Shown one piece after another: positions 1 to 35,472 of a stretch of 36,267 nucleotides of DNA. Position 1 is the stretch's first letter, and each line of letters begins with the position of its first letter. The position numbers and the translations under genes are program-made. A model generated the notes under the pieces. That model worked only from the letters and a program-made list of their open reading frames with translations. It ran no database searches and was not told where the DNA came from. Location: positions 1-36,267 of the IMG/VR virus record IMGVR_UViG_3300034063_000604; one strand, 5' to 3'. Source of the DNA: a virus.

Positions 1-3000
1 CAAAAGTTTCTTTTGTTTATCGCAATAGTCAAACATTCAACGTAGGAGAAAAGGTAACATTTGAATCTTCAGGAATTAATGCTATCGTTTCCTCTTGCAG
101 CAAAGGGGACAAAGAAATTACAGACTACTACACTGCTTCCAATGGAATGGAACCAGGATTTTACAATTATGGATTTCTGATTAGAAAGAAAAATTCTCCA
201 ATTCCTTCACGAAGAATGAAAATTGTATATGATCATTTTACGGTGGAATCTTCAGACCGAGGAGACTTCTTTACAGCATCTAGTTATAGTCAAAACGATA
301 GAATTTATCTGACATCTATTAATGGCGTATCATCAAAACAAGATTCTTTAATAGACATAAGACCAAGAGTTTCTAATTATTCTACATCTTCATCTATCTC
401 TCCATTTGATTTTAGTGGAAGAGATTTTACTTCTTCTGGTGCAAGTGTTTCAGATCCATTAGTCAGTGATGAATCATTAATTATATCCTATGAGTTTTAT
501 TTGCCAAGAATTGATTGCCTTTATTTGGATAAAGATGGGAAATTTTTATATCAAAAAGGAACTCCATCACTCAATCCTACTGAACCAAGATCATTGGATG
601 AGTCAATAAAAATTGCAACACTGACACTCCCTGCATATACTTACAGTGCCACTGAAGTAACTATTCAAAAATCAAGCCATAAACGCTATAGAATGTCTGA
701 CATTTCTAAGCTGGAGCAGAGAATTTTTAACGTAGAATACTACACACAACTTTCTTTATTAGAAGCAGATACTTCAAATTTAACTATTGCAGATTCTTCT
801 GGTCTGGATAGATTTAAGTGTGGATTTTTTGTCGATAATTTTAAATCACACAACAGTCATAGTCCTAATCATCCAGATTTTGAGGCATCAATTGATAAAT
901 CTGAAGGAATTTTAAGACCATCCCATTTTACTACAGCACTAGATTTGATGGTCGGTTCAGAATCTTTGATTGGAATTGGCAGCACTGCAAATCCAGATGT
1001 TGATGCAAATTTTGTTACTGATTTGGATGGTGTTAACATCAAAAAATCTGGAAGAATGTTAACTTTAACATACAGTGAAGTTAAAGTTATTGATCAACCA
1101 TTTGCCTCTAGAATTGAAAATGTAAATCCTTTTGCGGTGGTATTTTATCAGGGAACTTTGGAATTGAGTCCTCAATCTGATGTTTGGATTGATCAAAAAC
1201 GAATCTCTGCTTTAACACCAGAAGTTAATGATTTATATGATAAAACAATTAAGGAGTTAGGGGTTAACGAAAAAACAGGATTTGCACCAATAGAATGGAA
1301 CTCTTGGGAGACGTATCATACTTCTGTACAGAAAAGTAATCCTGTTGAAATTCCTGGTACAAGAGAAACAACGGTCAAACGCAATCCTACAGCAGATGAA
1401 CTAAAAGGTGTACCAAATACACGAGTAGCAGATCCAGGTCGTAATGGTCTTACTACTCTTACAAGAACAACGGCAGATTTTACTACAACAGAGACCACCA
1501 CATCCCAACAAGCTAGAAGTGGAATTCAAAGTAAAGTAACCCCAGTAATTGAGTCTGTTGACCTTGGTGATCGTATTGTAAGTAGAGATATAATCCCTTA
1601 CATGAGATCACGAAACATTGAATTCAGAATTAGTAGATTAAAACCAAATACCAGATTTTATGTATTTTTTGATGGTGTTGATGTTACAAAATATTGCACT
1701 CCAAAGTTCATAGAAATTACTATGTACACTGGAAGTACACCATTTAAGATTGGTGAAAAAGTTACTTGTAAGAAAAACATTGATGGAGATAAGAAGCAAG
1801 AGGTAATGACCTTCAGAGTTGCACATCCACAGCATTTGGAAGGAGATTATCGCAAACCAAGTGATAGGATAGGAAATAGTCCATATGATAATAGTAAAAA
1901 ACTTCAAGATAGTTATACTTCAACCAGCACAGTATTAAATGCTGATTTGTTTAGTTTATCTTCACAGATTACACAATTTAATGGATATTTAAATACTGGA
2001 TTTACCCTCAATGGAGTGACTAGCGGAGCTGAGGCAAGAGTTACAAATCAACGATTGGTATCTGATGATGTTGGCGATCTTTATGGTACATTATACATAC
2101 CAGATCCAAATGTAAAAGAAAACCCAAGATGGGAAACAGGATCAAAAACAATAAGATTTACCACAAGTTCAACAAATTCTAAAGTTGGTGGAGTTGTTCA
2201 AAGTTCTGCTGAGGCAAGTTTCTATTCTCAAGGAGAACTTGATACAATTCAACAAACAACTTTAAGTATAAAACTTCCTCTCGTAGAGTCTATTCCAAAA
2301 ATTGATACAAGAACAGTAAAAACTGTCGATAAAACTACACAAAAGGATGCTTTGATTTCTCAATCATCTACAACGTATTATGATCCTTTAGCACAATCTT
2401 TTGCAGTTGACGAAAAAACTGGAATCTTTTGTACTTCAGTTGAGGTTTATTTCAGAACAAAAGATGATAAGTTACCTGTTACAATGCAATTGCGAGAAAT
2501 GAAAGGAGGATTTCCTACTACAACAATTCTTCCTTTCTCTGTAGTAAAGTTAACACCAGATAAAGTCAACATTTCTGAAGATGCATCTAAACCTACAAAA
2601 TTCACTTTTGAAAGTCCTGTTTATTTACAAGGAACAACAGAATATGCTGTGGTTTTAGTAACAATTTCAGATAAGTATGAAGCTTGGATTTCTAGAATGG
2701 GAGAAATTGATATTTCAACTATTAATTTGGAAAATTCAAAGCAAGTTGTTATTTCTTCACAACCTTATCTTGGATCGCTCTTCAAATCTCAAAATGGAGC
2801 AACTTGGGATGCAAGTCAATTGGAAGACTTAAAAATGAAGGTCTATAAGGCACAATTTGTAAGTCAACCAGGAATTGTAAGATTCTACAATCCAGAGTTG
2901 CATAAAGGTAATAATCAACTTGCTAAATTAGCAAAAAATCCAATTAGAACTAACTCAAAAAGAGCAATTGTTGGATTGGGAACTACATTCTCTAACGTTG

Positions 3001-20996: not shown

Positions 20997-21665
20997 CTGG
21001 CGGAAAAAACAATTAAACTAATCACAGAAGAAATTGAAAATGTAGAAGTTATCGTTGAGAATCGCAACGGTAAAAAATCCTTGTACATTGAAGGAGTTTT
21101 TCTTCAAGGAAACATTTGCAACCGTAATGGTAGAATGTATCCTATGAATGTATTGTCCCGCGAAGTGGGAAGATACAATGAAAACTTTATTCAAAAAGGT
21201 CGTGCTTTAGGAGAACTCGGTCATCCTGATGGTCCTACCGTCAATCTTGACCGTGTTTCTCATAAGATTGTTTCTCTTCGTCAAGAAGGAAACAACTACA
21301 TTGGAAAAGCAAAGATTCTCGAATCAACTCCAATGGGTAAAATTGCATCGTCACTTTTAAGTGAAGGTGTAAAACTCGGAGTTTCTTCTCGTGGAGTTGG
21401 TTCTCTCAAGCAAAGCAATGAAGGTTATAGCATGGTAGGAGAGGATTTTACTCTTGCTACTGCTGCTGACATTGTTGCTGACCCATCTGCTCCTGATGCA
21501 TTCGTATCTGGAATTATGGAAGGTAAAGATTGGGTTTGGGATAATGGAATTCTTCGTGAAAGAATTGCAGAGAGAACATATAAAAGAATAAATACATTAG
21601 TTGATCAAAAACGCTTGGATGAACAGAAATTGAATCTGTTCAATGACTTCCTTGCAAATCTTTAA
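20997..21665 (+). CDS. gp21: gp21-like prohead maturation protease, inferred CTG start
   Basis: Homology to T4 gp21 (S78-type serine protease) is clear: LYIEGVFLQGNICNRNGRMY at residues 29-48, GELGHPDGPTVNLDRVSHKI at 72-91 with the candidate catalytic His76, and GVSSRGVGSL at 128-137 with the nucleophile Ser130/131. PSAPDAFVSG follows at 163-172. The first standard start codon (TTG 21081) would delete conserved N-terminal sequence. The frame is open upstream and reads (L/M)AEKTIKLITEEIENVEV from CTG 20997, giving 222 residues (T4: 212). ATT 20991 is another possible start. It cleaves scaffold and capsid proteins after L/I-x-E. Confidence 0.85.
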   Translation: MAEKTIKLITEEIENVEVIVENRNGKKSLYIEGVFLQGNICNRNGRMYPMNVLSREVGRYNENFIQKGRALGELGHPDGPTVNLDRVSHKIVSLRQEGNNYIGKAKILESTPMGKIASSLLSEGVKLGVSSRGVGSLKQSNEGYSMVGEDFTLATAADIVADPSAPDAFVSGIMEGKDWVWDNGILRERIAERTYKRINTLVDQKRLDEQKLNLFNDFLANL

Positions 21666-21711: not shown

Positions 21712-22779
21712 ATGTCCCGTGGTAAAAACTTACAAGAAATGGAAGTAGGCACTGTTCAATCCAAGTCCGCAGTGAATGCATCGGCAAGTGCTCCAGATCC
21801 AATGCAGACTATGGCTGGTGTTAGTTATGAGGATTTAGGTGGTCCTGATCCATCAAATTACAGACCAGATGACGATTCAGCAAAGCTGAAGGATGCTGGT
21901 GCAGGTCTCAAGAAAGTTTCTCTCGTTGCTGCTAAAAAGGTAGCAAAAGAAGAGTATGAAGAGGTTGAAGAGGAAGCACTTGAAACCGAAGAAGAGTACG
22001 AAGAAGTTGAAGAGGAAGAAGTTTTTGAAGAAGAAGCACTTCCAGAAATCAACGATAATGTTGACATCGAAGATGATGTCAATGCTCTTCTCGTAGGTGA
22101 AGAACTTTCCGAAGGTTTCAAAGATAAAGCAAAAACTATTTTTGAAGCTGCTCTCAAGTCAAAAGTTATTGAGATGAGAGAAGCTTTTGAAGCACATTAT
22201 GAAGCAAAACTCGTTGAGGAAGTTGAAGTCCTCAAAGAAGAGTTAATTGAGAGAGTAGATTCTTATCTTGAGTATGTTGCTGATGAATGGTTTAACGAAA
22301 ATGTTCTGGCAATTGAGAAAGGTCTCAAGTCAGAACTTACAGAATCGTTCCTTGATGGACTCAAGGGACTTTTTGAAGAAAATTATGTATCAATCCCTGA
22401 AGATAAATATGATGTTGTTGAGAATATGGCAAATAAACTTGACGAAATGGAGACAAAACTCAACGAGCAGATTGAGAAAAACATTTTCCTGAACAAGCGT
22501 CTCGCAGAGTCGGTTGCAGATGGAATCCTGTTTGATGTTTCTGAGGGTCTGACGATTACTCAGAAAGAGAAGCTTGCTTCACTTGCCGAAAGTGTTGAGT
22601 TTGAGAGTGAAGAGTCTTATAGAGAGAAGCTTGAAGTATTGAAAGAATCATACTTCCAACAAGCTGCTCCATACAGAAGTGAAACCGAAACCCTTAACGA
22701 ATCCGCACAACCTGGCGTAGATTATTCTGACGCAATGAGTGCATACGTTAATGTGCTTTCCAAATCAGTTCAAAAGTGA
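21712..22779 (+). CDS. gp22: gp22-like major prohead scaffold protein
   Basis: The protein has 355 residues (T4: 269), is strongly acidic and mostly helical, and lies between the protease and the major capsid genes as in T4. An acidic tandem block occupies residues 80-110. The rest is coiled-coil rich (for example LNEQIEKNIFLNKRLAESVA at about 253-272). Candidate gp21 cleavage sites of the L-x-E type include ELSE|G at about residue 134. It forms the internal core around which gp23 assembles and is degraded at maturation. The Shine-Dalgarno sequence GGAGAG lies just upstream. Confidence 0.9.
   Translation: MSRGKNLQEMEVGTVQSKSAVNASASAPDPMQTMAGVSYEDLGGPDPSNYRPDDDSAKLKDAGAGLKKVSLVAAKKVAKEEYEEVEEEALETEEEYEEVEEEEVFEEEALPEINDNVDIEDDVNALLVGEELSEGFKDKAKTIFEAALKSKVIEMREAFEAHYEAKLVEEVEVLKEELIERVDSYLEYVADEWFNENVLAIEKGLKSELTESFLDGLKGLFEENYVSIPEDKYDVVENMANKLDEMETKLNEQIEKNIFLNKRLAESVADGILFDVSEGLTITQKEKLASLAESVEFESEESYREKLEVLKESYFQQAAPYRSETETLNESAQPGVDYSDAMSAYVNVLSKSVQK
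21949..22041 (+). repeat. Acidic tandem repeat in gp22
   Basis: Encodes two near-copies of EEYEEVEEEA/EEYEEVEEEE, separated by LETE and ending in FEEEAL. The DNA is a purine-rich GAA/GAG tract, prone to slippage, and may vary in copy number between relatives. Confidence 0.7.
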
Positions 22780-22832: not shown

Positions 22833-24233
22833 ATGTTCAACGCAGAACATCTGCAGGAAAAGTGGGCACCACTCTTAGACCATAATGGTCTGGATCACAT
22901 CAAGGATCCCCATCGTAGAGCCGTAACCGCTGTCCTGTTAGAGAACCAAGAAAGATTCCTTCGTGAAGAGAGAGCATTCCTCTCCGAAGCTCCAACCGTT
23001 AACACCAACTCTGGTGCTAATGCTGGTTTTAGTGCTAATGCAAGTGCAACTGGTCCAGTTGCTGGTTTTGACCCTGTTCTGATCTCTCTGATCAGACGTT
23101 CAATGCCTAATCTGGTTGCTTATGATCTGGCTGGTGTTCAACCAATGAACGCTCCTACTGGTCTGATCTTTGCAATGCGTTCACGTTACACCAATCAGTC
23201 TGGTACTGAAGCACTGTTCAACGAAGTTGACACTGCATTCTCAGGTATCGGTACTACCAACGGTGCAATGGGTTCAACCAGCGCAGGTATGGTCAATGCT
23301 GCTGTTGGTCTGGGTACAACTGGTCAAGGTGGTTCAAACCCTGGTCTTCTGAATCCTTCTACTAACGCCACTCAAGCTGCTTACAGCGTTGGCGAAGGTA
23401 TGAGAACTGATGAGGCAGAAAACCTTGGTTCAGTTGGTGGTTCAGCATTCAACGAAATGGCTTTCTCAATCGAGAAAGTTACCGTTACTGCAAAGTCACG
23501 CGCACTGAAAGCTGAGTACTCACTGGAACTGGCACAAGACCTGAAGGCAATTCATGGTCTGAATGCTGAAGCAGAACTGGCTAACATTCTCTCCACTGAG
23601 ATTCTGGCTGAGATCAACCGCGAAGTTATCAGAACCATCTATAAGGTTGCTGAAACTGGTGCTCAAGTCAATACCCAAACTGCTGGTACTTTCAACCTTG
23701 ACGTTGACTCCAACGGTCGTTGGTCGGTTGAGAAGTTCAAGGGTCTGCTCTTCCAAATCGAGCGTGATGCAAACGCAATTGCACAGAGAACTCGTAGAGG
23801 AAAGGGTAACATCATCCTGTGCTCTGCTGACGTTGCTTCAGCACTGACCATGGCTGGTGTTCTCGATTACACCCCTGCACTCAATGCTAACCTGAACGTT
23901 GACGATACTGGCAATACCTTTGCTGGTGTTATCAATGGTAAGTACAGAGTCTACATTGATCCTTATTCGGCAAACGTTGCTGCAACTCAGTACTACGTTA
24001 TCGGTTATAAGGGTTCTTCACCTTATGATGCTGGTCTCTTCTACTGTCCTTATGTTCCTCTCCAAATGGTTCGTGCCGTTGGTGAGAACACATTCCAGCC
24101 TAAGATCGGCTTCAAGACCCGTTACGGAATGGTTGAGAACCCATTCTCGCAGGGTACTACCCAAGGTTCTGGCACTCTGACTGTTAATAGCAACCGCTAC
24201 TACAGAAGAGTTTCTGTTACCAACCTGATGTGA
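22833..24233 (+). CDS. gp23: gp23-like major capsid protein
   Basis: The protein has 466 residues (T4: 521 before cleavage). The N-terminus (WAPLLDHNGLDHIKDPHRRA) is the gp23 leader; FLSE|APTV at residues 49-56 is the likely gp21 cleavage site. Further gp23 motifs include LISLIRRSMPNLVAYDLAGV at about 75-94, VQPMNAPTGLIFAMRSRY at 94-111, ARALKAEYSLELAQDL-type sequence near 225, GNIILCSADVASAL near 325, and the C-terminal GFKTRYGMVENPF. Codon choice differs from neighbours (CTG, AAC, ACC, TTC), as expected for a very highly expressed gene. It is followed by a strong terminator. Confidence 0.97.
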   Translation: MFNAEHLQEKWAPLLDHNGLDHIKDPHRRAVTAVLLENQERFLREERAFLSEAPTVNTNSGANAGFSANASATGPVAGFDPVLISLIRRSMPNLVAYDLAGVQPMNAPTGLIFAMRSRYTNQSGTEALFNEVDTAFSGIGTTNGAMGSTSAGMVNAAVGLGTTGQGGSNPGLLNPSTNATQAAYSVGEGMRTDEAENLGSVGGSAFNEMAFSIEKVTVTAKSRALKAEYSLELAQDLKAIHGLNAEAELANILSTEILAEINREVIRTIYKVAETGAQVNTQTAGTFNLDVDSNGRWSVEKFKGLLFQIERDANAIAQRTRRGKGNIILCSADVASALTMAGVLDYTPALNANLNVDDTGNTFAGVINGKYRVYIDPYSANVAATQYYVIGYKGSSPYDAGLFYCPYVPLQMVRAVGENTFQPKIGFKTRYGMVENPFSQGTTQGSGTLTVNSNRYYRRVSVTNLM

Positions 24234-31344: not shown

Positions 31345-33528
31345 ATGCCTGTCAATCACGAAATCAAGTCCCAACTTGCTAAGTTGCTTGCCACTGAGGA
31401 TCTTGTGGTGGAGCATAAAAAGGTTGAAACTGCCTGCTTTAACGTTCATACCCGTGTATTGACTCTTCCTCTCTGGGAACGTGCTAGCAGCACCGTATAC
31501 GATCTTCTGGTGGGGCATGAAGTCGGTCACGCACTTTATACTCCCGATGAAGATTGGACTGAGACTGTAAAGATTCCACAACAATTCGTGAATGTGGTGG
31601 AGGATGCTCGCATTGAGAAACTGATGAAGCGTCGTTATGCTGGTCTTGCCAAAACTTTCTTCAATGGTTATAAAGAGTTGAAGGAAGATGATTTCTTTCA
31701 GTTGGAAGATGAAGATGTTTCTTCCTTCAATCTTGCAGATCGGGTGAATCTTTATTTCAAAATTGGTAATTTTATTCCTCTCGATTTTATTCCTGAGGAG
31801 AAAGAAATTGTTGACTTGATTTCTGCAACAGAAACTTTTGCTGATGCATTGATTGCTGCAGAAGAACTTTATAAGTACTGCAAAAAGGAGAAAGAACAGA
31901 AACAAAAAGTTGCTCAATTTGATTCGCACGATCAGCAGGGTAATTCTACTGATGCTGGTGATGAGCAAGTTGAAGTCGAACAAGATCCAAACTCTGAAGA
32001 GGATGGTGATTCTAACTCATCACAAACTCAACAATCTGAAGAAACTGGTTCTTCTGAAGGAGATGCAACTAGATCTGATCTTCCTGGTGATGAAGCAGAA
32101 CCTGAGATTCGCACTGCAGAATCTTTGAAGGATAAAATTCGTGATCTTGTGAATTCTGATGGTCATGAGAATGTGTATGTTGAGATTCCACAAGTAAATC
32201 TTGAAACGGTCATTGGTAAAAATATCGAAGTTCATTATGATATTGATGCCTGCTTTGGTCATCAACAAATGAAGCACAATGAACTAGCATCTGAAAATAA
32301 TTTCAAACCAACTCATCTTTTTCAAGAAGTTGATAATGAATACAAGAAATTTAAACTTTCTGCACAAAAAGAAGTTAATTATCTTGTAAAGGAATTTGAG
32401 TGCCGTAAGGCAGCAGATTCCTATGCCCGTTCTTCAACTGCTAGGACGGGTGTTCTTGATACTTCCCGTATTCATTCATACAAGTATACAGAAGACTTGT
32501 TTAAGAAAGTCACTGTGATTCCCGATGGAAAAAATCACGGTCTAGTATTTGTTTTGGATTGGTCTGGATCAATGCAAAATGTTCTTCTAGATACTTGCAA
32601 ACAACTCTTCAATCTTATTTGGTTCTGTAAAAAAGTTTCCATTCCTTTTGAAGTTTATGCCTTTACGAATGAATGGAGGCGAGGTGAATACAATTATGAA
32701 GATGGAACGTACAAAGCAGCAGATCGCAATTCACACTATGAGAAAAAACAAGGTCTTCTTCAAGTTGATGAGACTTTTTCTTTGATGAATTTGCTCACGA
32801 GTAAAATTTCTGCTAAAGATCTGGAGCATCAAATGGTAAATGTGTGGCGTCTTGCTGCGTGTTTTTCTGATTTGTATTATACAAATTATACATATCCAAC
32901 TCGTTTGTGTCTTTCTGGAACTCCTTTGAATGAATCTTTGATTTCACTTCATCAAATTCTTCCCAAGTTTCAGAAAGAAAATAAACTACAAAAAGTTCAG
33001 TGTATTGTATTAACCGATGGTGAGGCAAATTATGTTCCCTATCATCGTGAAGTTAAACGTAATTGGGAAAATGAACCTTATCTTGGTCTTTCTAGTGTAA
33101 ATCCTCATAATACTTTTCTTAGGGATCGCAAACTTGGAACTACCTATAAATTTGATGGAAGGTATCATCAATTTACAGACACTCTTCTCAATAATCTGAA
33201 AGATAAGTTTCCTTCGGTAAATTTTATTGGTATTCGTGTTCTTGCTGGTCGTGATGTGAATCGCTTTATCAATCTGTATCATACTTGTGCTGATAAGTAT
33301 TATGATACGATTCAAAATGACTGGAAAAAACTGAAAAGTTTTACGATTAAAAATTCTGGTTACGATGCTTATTTTGGTCTTTCTTCTGTTGCACTTTCTC
33401 AAGATACTGAGTTTGAAGTTGCAGAAGATGCTTCTAAAGCACAAATCAAATCTGCTTTTGTGAAATCTTTGAAAACTAAAAAACTCAATAAAAAGGTTCT
33501 TGGGGAGTTCATCTCTCTTGTTGCATAA
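31345..33528 (+). CDS. CobT-like VWA protein with HEVGH metallopeptidase-like motif
   Basis: The protein has 727 residues. The N-terminal domain contains HEVGH at 58-62 followed by VVEDARIEKLM at 84-94, a gluzincin-like zinc site arrangement. Residues 195-255 are an acidic Ser/Gln/Glu linker. The C-terminal VWA domain has a complete MIDAS: DWSGS at 405-409, Thr526 in SGTPLNESL, and Asp558 in VLTDGEANY. This is the layout of CobT-type partners of CobS/MoxR AAA+ ATPases, and a CobS-like gene lies 0.8 kb downstream. No CobN-like chelatase subunit is in the window, so a cobalt-chelation role is not shown; a protein-remodelling or protease role is equally possible. Confidence 0.85.
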   Translation: MPVNHEIKSQLAKLLATEDLVVEHKKVETACFNVHTRVLTLPLWERASSTVYDLLVGHEVGHALYTPDEDWTETVKIPQQFVNVVEDARIEKLMKRRYAGLAKTFFNGYKELKEDDFFQLEDEDVSSFNLADRVNLYFKIGNFIPLDFIPEEKEIVDLISATETFADALIAAEELYKYCKKEKEQKQKVAQFDSHDQQGNSTDAGDEQVEVEQDPNSEEDGDSNSSQTQQSEETGSSEGDATRSDLPGDEAEPEIRTAESLKDKIRDLVNSDGHENVYVEIPQVNLETVIGKNIEVHYDIDACFGHQQMKHNELASENNFKPTHLFQEVDNEYKKFKLSAQKEVNYLVKEFECRKAADSYARSSTARTGVLDTSRIHSYKYTEDLFKKVTVIPDGKNHGLVFVLDWSGSMQNVLLDTCKQLFNLIWFCKKVSIPFEVYAFTNEWRRGEYNYEDGTYKAADRNSHYEKKQGLLQVDETFSLMNLLTSKISAKDLEHQMVNVWRLAACFSDLYYTNYTYPTRLCLSGTPLNESLISLHQILPKFQKENKLQKVQCIVLTDGEANYVPYHREVKRNWENEPYLGLSSVNPHNTFLRDRKLGTTYKFDGRYHQFTDTLLNNLKDKFPSVNFIGIRVLAGRDVNRFINLYHTCADKYYDTIQNDWKKLKSFTIKNSGYDAYFGLSSVALSQDTEFEVAEDASKAQIKSAFVKSLKTKKLNKKVLGEFISLVA

Positions 33529-33531
33529 ATA
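33524..33531 (+). promoter_or_regulatory. Late promoter box (CATAAATA) before the capsid-targeted gene
   Basis: One mismatch to TATAAATA, at the end of the VWA gene, 16 bases before the ATG at 33547. It is the only clear late-type box in the 3' non-structural region, consistent with a virion-packaged product. Confidence 0.6.
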
Positions 33532-33546
33532 TTTAAAAAACTTAAG

Positions 33547-34101
33547 ATGAAAACTTTTAACGAATTTATTTCTGAGGCAAGAGAATTAAATGAGACTTCT
33601 CTCACTCGTGTGATGAGAAAGTCTGAAAAAGGTGGTACAGCAATTCTTTCTGGTCAACGCGGAGATAAGTCTAAAAAAGAAAACAAGGAAAGGTCTGCAA
33701 GAACAGAAAGAAGAATTAGAGGTGCTGGACTACCAGGACCTACTAAAGTATCTGGACGTTACACAGAAAACCCAGGAACTCCAGAAGAGAAAAAGGTGGG
33801 AGAAAAGTCTCATGTAGTTTCTTCTGGCAAAATGGGTAAGAGAAAGTTTAAAAAAACTATAGAGAAACTTGGAACTGAAGGCGGATTGAAGCATAAGCGT
33901 AATGTGAAAGGTTCATCCAAAGATGATCAAGATTCTGTACTGATTCAACGTAAAGGTGGTGGAGAAGCAACACTTAAAGGAACTTCAAAAACATCTTGGC
34001 CAGGTAAAGGTAAAAATGTTAAAGTTGGTGGTATGAAACCAGGAAGAACTGGTGAATTTGATACAAAAGTCAAAAACAAAACATTTACATATGAAGCATA
34101 A
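33547..34101 (+). CDS. Putative internal head protein with capsid-targeting leader
   Basis: The N-terminus MKTFNEFISEAR matches the T4 internal protein (IPI/II/III) leader MKTYQEFIAEA at all but three places; in T4 it is cleaved after the Glu by gp21. Here cleavage would be FISE|AREL, the same x-S-E|A form as the gp23 site. The remaining ~174 residues are very basic (Lys, Arg, Gly) and include AILSGQRGDKSKKENKERSA, LPGPTKVSGRYTENPG, DQDSVLIQRKGGG and a C-terminal SWPGKGKNVK...PGRTGEFDTK, suggesting a compact fold rather than pure low complexity. It is preceded by a late-type box. It is probably packaged and injected; its target is unknown. Confidence 0.83.
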   Translation: MKTFNEFISEARELNETSLTRVMRKSEKGGTAILSGQRGDKSKKENKERSARTERRIRGAGLPGPTKVSGRYTENPGTPEEKKVGEKSHVVSSGKMGKRKFKKTIEKLGTEGGLKHKRNVKGSSKDDQDSVLIQRKGGGEATLKGTSKTSWPGKGKNVKVGGMKPGRTGEFDTKVKNKTFTYEA

Positions 34102-34315: not shown

Positions 34316-34344
34316 AACTTCAGTTGAAACAAACACCCCACATC

Positions 34345-35472
34345 ATGACTCGCATTCAAATGACCGACGATCAAATTCTTAACGATCTCAAAAGCACATT
34401 TGGTGGCAAAATCACTGCTGCTGATGTTCGTGGTTATTGTGCATCCAAAAATCTTTCTTATCCCACTGTAACCAAACGACTGGAAACTTTTAAAGTTGGT
34501 CGTGGTAAGTGGAATCTGGAAGTTACTCCGCAACGTGTGGAAGAAATTGAACGTTCATTCAATAATGTTTCTGTTCTTCCTGAAGTTCATCAAAATCTTA
34601 TTCCGTCAAAAGATGATACCTTCGTCAAGTTTGGTAACTTTAACGATATTAAAAAAATTATTGAGTCCCGTCTTTTCTATCCTACGTTCATTACGGGTCT
34701 TTCGGGTAATGGCAAAACGTTCAGCGTGGAGCAAGCGTGTGCTCAACTTAAGCGTGAACTGATTCGTGTCAACATCACCATTGAGACCGACGAGGATGAT
34801 CTGATTGGTGGTTTTCGTCTTGTGAATGGTGAAACTGCTTGGCACAATGGTCCTGTGATTGAGGCACTTGAGCGTGGTGCAGTTCTTCTTCTGGATGAGA
34901 TTGATCTTGCTTCTAATAAAATTCTTTGTCTTCAATCTGTTCTAGAAGGTAAAGGTGTCTTTCTGAAGAAGATCGGCAAGTTCGTCAAACCTGCTGCAGG
35001 ATTCAACGTGATTGCCACTGCAAACACCAAGGGCAAGGGTTCTGATGACGGTAGGTTCATTGGCACCAACGTGCTCAATGAAGCGTTTCTGGAGCGGTTT
35101 CCTGTGACTCTGGAGCAGTCTTATCCTGCTCCTGCAACCGAGCAGAAGATTCTGGAAGGGGTTGCTCTGGATCTTGGTGTGGAGGATCGTGACTTCTGCA
35201 AGCGTCTTGTTGATTGGGGTGACATCATTCGTAAGACTTTCTATGATGGTGGCATTGAGGAAATCATCAGCACCCGTCGTTTGGTTCACATCATTCGTGC
35301 TTACAGTATCTTCAACGATAAGGCAAAGGCAATTCAAGTCTGCGTGAATCGTTTTGACGATGAAACTAAAACTGCTTTTCTGGAACTGTATGATAAAGTT
35401 GATGCAGATTTTGTGATGCCTTCTCAACCTGAACTTACTGCAGAATATGTTGACGTAAAGAAAGCAAACTGA
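34345..35472 (+). CDS. cobS: CobS-like AAA+ ATPase (MoxR/CbbQ type)
   Basis: The ATG at 34345 gives 375 residues; TTG 34324 and ATG 34360 are alternatives. An N-terminal winged-helix-like region (ILNDLKSTFGGKITAADVRG) precedes the AAA+ core: Walker A GLSGNGKT at 118-125, Walker B LLLDEID at 181-187, sensor 1 ATANT at 224-228, and NEAFLERF at 245-252 near the expected arginine finger. Genes annotated cobS are near-universal in cyanomyoviruses. In bacteria CobS partners CobT and CobN in cobaltochelatase; here only the CobT-like VWA protein is nearby, so the substrate is open. Codons are more GC-rich than in the neighbouring genes. Confidence 0.9.
   Translation: MTRIQMTDDQILNDLKSTFGGKITAADVRGYCASKNLSYPTVTKRLETFKVGRGKWNLEVTPQRVEEIERSFNNVSVLPEVHQNLIPSKDDTFVKFGNFNDIKKIIESRLFYPTFITGLSGNGKTFSVEQACAQLKRELIRVNITIETDEDDLIGGFRLVNGETAWHNGPVIEALERGAVLLLDEIDLASNKILCLQSVLEGKGVFLKKIGKFVKPAAGFNVIATANTKGKGSDDGRFIGTNVLNEAFLERFPVTLEQSYPAPATEQKILEGVALDLGVEDRDFCKRLVDWGDIIRKTFYDGGIEEIISTRRLVHIIRAYSIFNDKAKAIQVCVNRFDDETKTAFLELYDKVDADFVMPSQPELTAEYVDVKKAN

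Follow-up and report, generated by a model that had tools for sequence, protein, structure and literature searches.

A predicted SAM lyase with a T4 internal-protein-type capsid-targeting leader in T4-like cyanophages

A T4-like cyanophage encodes a 184-residue protein in which a leader of the T4 internal-protein type precedes a predicted SAM lyase. We consider it likely that this enzyme is made late in infection, targeted to the prohead scaffold, trimmed by the head protease, and packaged; its probable injection would deplete the SAM of the host. The window analyzed here comprises 36,267 bases, and this 36-kb fragment alone is the available genome of the phage. The gene lies at 33547-34101 on the plus strand, and the translation of its open reading frame begins MKTFNEFISEARELNETSLTR (N-terminal translation, MKTFNEFISEARELNETSLTRVMRKSEKGG). 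Its upstream neighbor is a phrog_459 "peptidase" gene (31345-33528) and its downstream neighbor is a CobS-type ATPase gene (34324-35472). The window also contains T4-type genes for the head maturation protease, the scaffold, and the major capsid protein, as well as a late sigma factor (Table 1). As the preliminary description had stated, the product is basic, with a computed pI of 10.3 (10.45 for the mature part, with 43 K/R versus 18 D/E).

Table 1. Features of the predicted lyase gene and of the head genes in the window (arrows mark predicted cleavage positions)
Feature	Positions	Strand	Basis or remark
Late-promoter-type box CATAAATA	33524..33531	+	ATAAATA/CTAAATA upstream kept in homologues
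Whole gene, 184-aa precursor of predicted capsid-targeted SAM lyase	33547..34101	+	Leader, alignment, Pfam, model
Leader, residues 1-16, predicted capsid-targeting sequence	33547..33594	+	F4, F7 = targeting positions 4, 7 of T4 IPIII
Candidate first prohead-protease site ISE↓A, residues 8-10	33568..33576	+	Not a kept site in close relatives
Prohead-protease-type site LNE↓T, residues 14-16, putative cut after E16	33586..33594	+	Conserved
Predicted SAM lyase domain, residues ~20-149, ferredoxin/PII-like fold	33604..33993	+	Pfam, PDB profile, model
G70-R71-Y72 = Svi3-3 G56/Y58 (SAM ribose, sulfonium contacts)	33754..33762	+	Alignment
E86-K87-S88 = catalytic Svi3-3 E69 (T3 E68) and S71	33802..33810	+	Alignment
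Q128-D129 = Svi3-3 Q104/E105	33928..33933	+	Alignment
T4 gp21-type head maturation protease, presumed processing enzyme	21012..21665	+	phrog_207 E=2.4e-75
gp22-type prohead scaffold, presumed leader docking partner	21712..22779	+	phrog_237 E=2.4e-104
gp23-type major capsid protein; own site FLSE↓A at residues 49-52	22833..24233	+	phrog_138; sequence

The leader of the window protein, MKTFNEFISEA, is identical at 8/11 positions to those of T4 IPII and IPIII, both of which begin MKTYQEFIAEA, and at 7/11 positions to that of IPI, which begins MKTFKEFTSTTTPVSTITE↓A (read from NC_000866). The earlier proposal that the open reading frame at 33547 opens with nearly the T4 internal-protein sequence is thus borne out, and the leader is kept in relatives. 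In T4 IPIII, targeting is achieved mainly via residues 4 and 7 and processing via residues 8 and 10 (PMC9026906). The aromatic targeting positions of the T4 internal proteins are present here as F4 and F7. Of 158 distinct homologues, 141 have F or Y at position 4 and 142 have F at position 7. A strict leader pattern, M[KR].[FYLI]..F[LIMV].E at the protein start, opens only 4/219 S-CREM2 CDS and two S-SCSM1 ORFs, which argues that such a leader is rare and not typical of cyanophage proteins in general. Among the 219 S-CREM2 proteins, 10-residue matches to IPIII reached at most 5/10, and no other ORF of the 36-kb window showed a leader-type start. PHROG 8765, "internal virion protein," matched the leader weakly (E 0.17) and was not taken as proof. 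Leaderless homologues that retain the core, which the preliminary description had named as counterevidence, were not found within the T4-like cyanophage clade; the solved T3 and Svi3-3 SAM lyases keep the core without a leader, beginning near residues 20 and 24 of the window protein.

In the homologues, the leader runs up to a conserved protease-type site. The motif [LIVM]-x-E↓[STGK] was present in 158/158 distinct homologue N termini, the residue after the conserved Glu being small except for a single Lys, and in the window protein it reads LNE↓T and ends at residue 16. A hydrophobic-x-Glu site that ends the propeptide, a sequence feature of the T4 internal proteins, is accordingly found here. 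An alignment of 71 sequences shows no variation at E16, and a further homologue (L036, with TSM and so missed by the pattern) carries a hydrophobic-x-Glu site as well. The site opens an SSL-R segment, which is LNE↓TSLTR in the window protein and IQE↓TSL, LEE↓SSL, IQE↓SSL, or LCE↓GGL in relatives. Across the distinct homologues, the distribution of leader lengths spans 7-22 residues and peaks at exactly 10, as in many relatives (e.g., MKTFKEFIQE↓SSLSR), and at 16; T4 propeptides span 10-19 residues (PMC9026906). The preliminary description had placed the cut at residue 10 (ISE↓A), likening it to an LSE↓A site in gp23. The window gp23 does contain a site of this type, FLSE↓A. Residue 10 was rejected as a family-wide cut, the corresponding site being M-x-E↓C in most close relatives and absent from some. 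Judged from the alignments, the cut at residue 10 was probably misplaced, and LNE↓T at residue 16 is the conserved site. Cleavage after E16 would leave almost exactly a T3-like core, since the structural alignment with T3 starts at model residue 20, on T3 residue 3; the predicted mature N terminus lies ≤3 residues from this start. The E-SSL-R segment also occurs in SAM-lyase-like relatives from Campylobacter phage CP220, where the protein is annotated as hypothetical, and from Prevotella Lak megaphages, where it is unannotated (L275 2968-3594, L276 902-1789, and L277 899-1771). Because the segment is kept in these phages, conservation of E16 may be partly structural.

On profile matches and a structural model, residues ~20-149 are a SAM lyase. 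The Pfam profile PF23780 (S-AdoMet_lyase) scored 28.3 bits on the window protein (cutoff, 28.0), over residues 33-105 only, and it matched 70/71 relatives (best E, 2.2e-22). Apart from this marginal match, the lyase link at the sequence level came from family alignments only: a PDB search with the single window sequence and an NCBIfam search returned no match. With the family profile, the PDB search retrieved the T3 SAM lyase (E 0.0036), placing E86 on T3 E68, mutation of which abolishes rescue, and Q128-D129 on T3 QD; Svi3-3 was retrieved more weakly (E 1.2 and 0.1). The assay published for Svi3-3 and T3 is rescue of an E. coli strain with an ilvA deletion. DUF3293 matched 18 relatives, and this identity was set aside, as the matches were weaker than those to PF23780.

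Structure prediction and fold comparison, as suggested in the preliminary description, likewise led to the T3 enzyme. The AlphaFold2 model of the window protein, a single chain, is of moderate confidence (pLDDT 67, pTM 0.62), and its top six Foldseek matches were all T3 or Svi3-3 SAM lyases. In VIA-align, T3 scored Z 13.1 and 12.6, Svi3-3 scored 7.7 and 7.5, and the best unrelated chain reached 6.6; the match to 8bb1 (Z 13.1) extends over 133 residues with an rmsd of 3.1, and the model has the ferredoxin/PII-like alpha-beta fold. The Svi3-3 ligand residues G56, Y58, E69, S71, and Q104 correspond to G70, Y72, E86, S88, and Q128 of the window protein, all of which are invariant in 71 homologues with 32-92% identity to it. 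The strictly conserved Gly, Glu, and Gln and the active-site Tyr that characterize phage SAM lyases are therefore all present. Phage SAM lyases are trimers with active sites at the interfaces. The core has a dN/dS of about 0.10, indicating purifying selection, and we infer that the window protein catalyzes the SAM lyase reaction. The mature part showed no similarity to IPI, and only the leader resembles T4 internal proteins. The earlier remark that the mature part bears no evident similarity thus holds with respect to T4 but overlooked its SAM lyase identity.

The late-type box reported upstream of the gene is present and conserved in homologues; taken alone, it is no more than expected by chance. 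ATAAATA lies ≤60 nt upstream in 71/144 distinct homologue upstream regions, versus about 4% in shuffles, and the distance from box to ATG is 15 nt in the window and 16-24 nt in homologues. Two copies of CATAAATA were found in the AT-rich window versus 2.4 expected, so that significance of the window box by itself was rejected and only its conservation counts. All matches of ATAAATA in the window (16/16) are on the plus strand and none on the minus strand, several of them directly 5' of structural genes. The gp21-type protease gene lacks an ATG. Its conserved N terminus, TIKLITEEIENVEVIVENRNGKKSLYIEG (compare MKLIREEIETVELL in S-CREM2), is in frame and apparently read from an ATT at 21012, 27 nt downstream of an ATAAATA box, whereas the mechanically called ORF starts at a TTG at 21081. 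From its sequence, this ATT appears to be either a rare start codon or a sequence error.

Evidence from virions comes from a homologue, ORF6 of S-CREM2, which begins MKDFDSFLEE...LEE↓SS. In the S-CREM2 report (PMC10665884), ORF6 is annotated as a SAM hydrolase, and 19 unique peptides identified it in virions purified on CsCl (Table 3 of that report); the authors suggest that it enters the host to act against restriction and caution that such proteins may co-purify with virions. By analogy with ORF6, on which the mass spectrometry was performed and for which carry-over is possible, packaging of the window protein is likely. Searches of viral contigs yielded >500 related stretches; scans with the window protein gave mostly close relatives, and divergent queries were needed.

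To place the leader in a wider context, the N termini encoded by the S-CREM2 genome were compared with the published virion proteome (PMC10665884). Strict-leader proteins were found in virions in 4/4 cases, versus 52/219 overall (Fisher p=0.0029, an exploratory value because the pattern was defined once the family was known and because ORF6 itself is part of the test). The four are the ORF6 lyase, ORF13, the ORF14 kinase, and the ORF154 cytidylyltransferase. S-SCSM1 replicates the association weakly (1/2): its virion-detected NMNAT begins MKSFLQFLKE↓A, and ORF30 (L270 44215-44535), a hypothetical protein of 106 aa that carries no virion annotation, begins MKTFKQFMSE↓S and is a candidate for either a missed cargo protein or a counterexample. 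The cytidylyltransferase of S-CRM01 begins MKLFNQFFKE↓A. A search with the kinase region matched S-CREM2 itself and no other entry.

Several observations at related loci also concern the leader or the lyase gene. The virion-detected S-CREM2 "Cas9" ORF12 (L088 7704-10313) contains a leader-like RFASFMAE↓A at a distance of 17 residues from its annotated N terminus, with a CTG codon preceding the R of RFASFMAE, compatible with an alternative start or an internal leader. Small neighbor proteins with leader-like starts (MKSFKQFLEEA, MKDLSKFLRE) are encoded at P-SSM2 PSSM2_115 (L084 6507-6767) and L083 1753-1980, and their N termini suggest clusters of packaged cargo. In S-CREM2 (L082 4947-7245) and S-N03 (L083 4949-7113), a DNA adenine methylase gene immediately precedes the SAM lyase gene, which places a SAM consumer beside a SAM destroyer.

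Taken in order, the proposed pathway would run as follows. Late expression would yield a SAM lyase precursor with a T4 internal-protein-type leader, through which the precursor would bind the gp22 scaffold as the prohead is built. A gp21-type protease would then cleave after Glu16, and possibly after Glu10 too, and the freed basic enzyme would stay with the packaged DNA and be ejected alongside it. Injection with the DNA is probable because the lyase carries the same address tag that T4 uses for head loading. In the Synechococcus host, the lyase would trimerize and convert SAM to methylthioadenosine and homoserine lactone, so that SAM would be drained at time zero and type I/III restriction-modification, BREX, and host methylation would be stopped before phage gene expression. 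T3 SAM lyase counters restriction and BREX, both of which require SAM (PMC8406200 and PMC12255297). The injected counter-defense role that had been proposed is likely, but the predicted target is the metabolite SAM, since the mature part is a SAM lyase, rather than an unknown host defense bound in the manner of IPI. T4 internal proteins are present at about 360 copies (PMC9026906). Svi3-3 turns over about 9.5 times per second. As a rough estimate of feasibility, about 300 packaged copies working at 9.5/s would have a capacity near 3,000 SAM per second. At that rate and with resynthesis ignored, a SAM pool of the order of 100,000 molecules in a small Synechococcus cell would be gone within about a minute.

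Other readings have to be weighed against this pathway. It is unlikely that the lyase acts only inside the producing cell, with its presence in virions due to carry-over and its leader coincidental or otherwise used. Co-purification was raised by the S-CREM2 authors themselves (PMC10665884), and the SAM lyase of T3 works early and inside the cell (PMC8406200). However, the late box is conserved, the reverse of early expression in T3; 158 distinct homologues retain the leader and the site; and the 4/4 strict-leader S-CREM2 proteins detected in virions include unrelated enzymes.

The remaining two alternatives accept packaging and differ over what the protein does. We regard as quite improbable that a packaged, injected PII-like lyase acts on SAM-AMP, the type III CRISPR messenger, and would thus be an injected anti-CRISPR. 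According to PMC12255297, SAM-AMP lyases have this fold with the same catalytic Glu and Gln, and the phage-encoded candidate AcrIIIB4 is active; the same source places Thr (T112) four residues after the conserved Gln in the SAM-AMP lyase and a hydrophobic residue there in SAM lyases (Ile in Svi3-3). A SAM-AMP substrate is disfavored because L132 replaces this Thr in the window protein, and the best structural matches are SAM lyases. Least probable of all is a basic structural or DNA-condensing internal protein built on a lyase fold whose catalysis has been lost. The strongly basic product would suit such a role, as with T4 internal proteins among packaged DNA; yet none of the Svi3-3/T3 ligand residues varies among the 71 homologues, purifying selection acts on the core, and a scaffold role needs no ligand residues. 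A packaged, catalytically active SAM lyase thus remains the preferred reading.

The presence of the lyase in S-CREM2 virions and the idea of injection are already published (PMC10665884). What is new is therefore confined to the capsid-targeting leader with its conserved protease site, their conservation across the sampled viral contigs, and the link to other virion cargo. We lean slightly toward the broader view that a widespread family of T4-like cyanophages preloads a SAM-destroying enzyme by the T4 capsid-targeting route, so that it acts before transcription, and that further injected cargo enzymes bear the leader too, including a kinase, a cytidylyltransferase, and a Cas9-like nuclease. 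T3 SAM lyase is known as an early-expressed counter-defense and the T4 internal proteins as injected inhibitors; joining the two would disarm SAM-dependent defense without the delay of gene expression. If true, the T4 internal-protein strategy would reach beyond protein inhibitors of single nucleases to the injection of an enzyme able to disarm many SAM-dependent defenses at once. The leader, which picks out virion-detected enzymes of S-CREM2, would also provide a simple rule for predicting injected cargo among "hypothetical" cyanophage proteins.

Compared with known systems, S-CREM2 ORF6 (WNL50925.1) is homologous over the whole window protein (45% identity) and shares the leader and an LEE↓SS site, but it has 414 aa with a C-terminal extension, versus 184 aa in the window; the available part of PMC10665884 draws no link to a capsid-targeting leader or protease site. 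The SAM-AMP lyases of C. botulinum and the candidate AcrIIIB4 belong to the same PII-like lyase superfamily, with conserved Glu and Gln, whereas the adenine-contacting Thr is Leu in the window protein and no capsid-targeting leader is described for them in the available part of PMC12255297. The T4 internal proteins IPI, IPII, and IPIII, which among themselves share only the leader (PMC3012670), resemble the window protein in the capsid-targeting leader, the hydrophobic-x-E↓small site, the basic mature product, and the packaged cargo role, here predicted. IPI, a GmrSD inhibitor that counters host restriction after injection, likewise has its cut site displaced from the targeting head, to residue 19. 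The mature parts, however, are unrelated, and IPI binds and inhibits an enzyme, whereas the window protein is a predicted enzyme. With the T3 SAM lyase (SAMase; PDB 7ock and 8bb1) and Svi3-3 (6zm9), the window protein shares the fold, the Gly-x-Tyr, the catalytic Glu, and the Gln-acidic motif, but both of those enzymes are leaderless, Svi3-3 lacking the 1-16 segment in the structural alignment, and neither has the long insertion before Q128. The T3 lyase is expressed early, whereas the window gene carries a late-type box. The window protein is thus predicted to be delivered as a T4 internal protein and to act chemically as a T3 SAM lyase.
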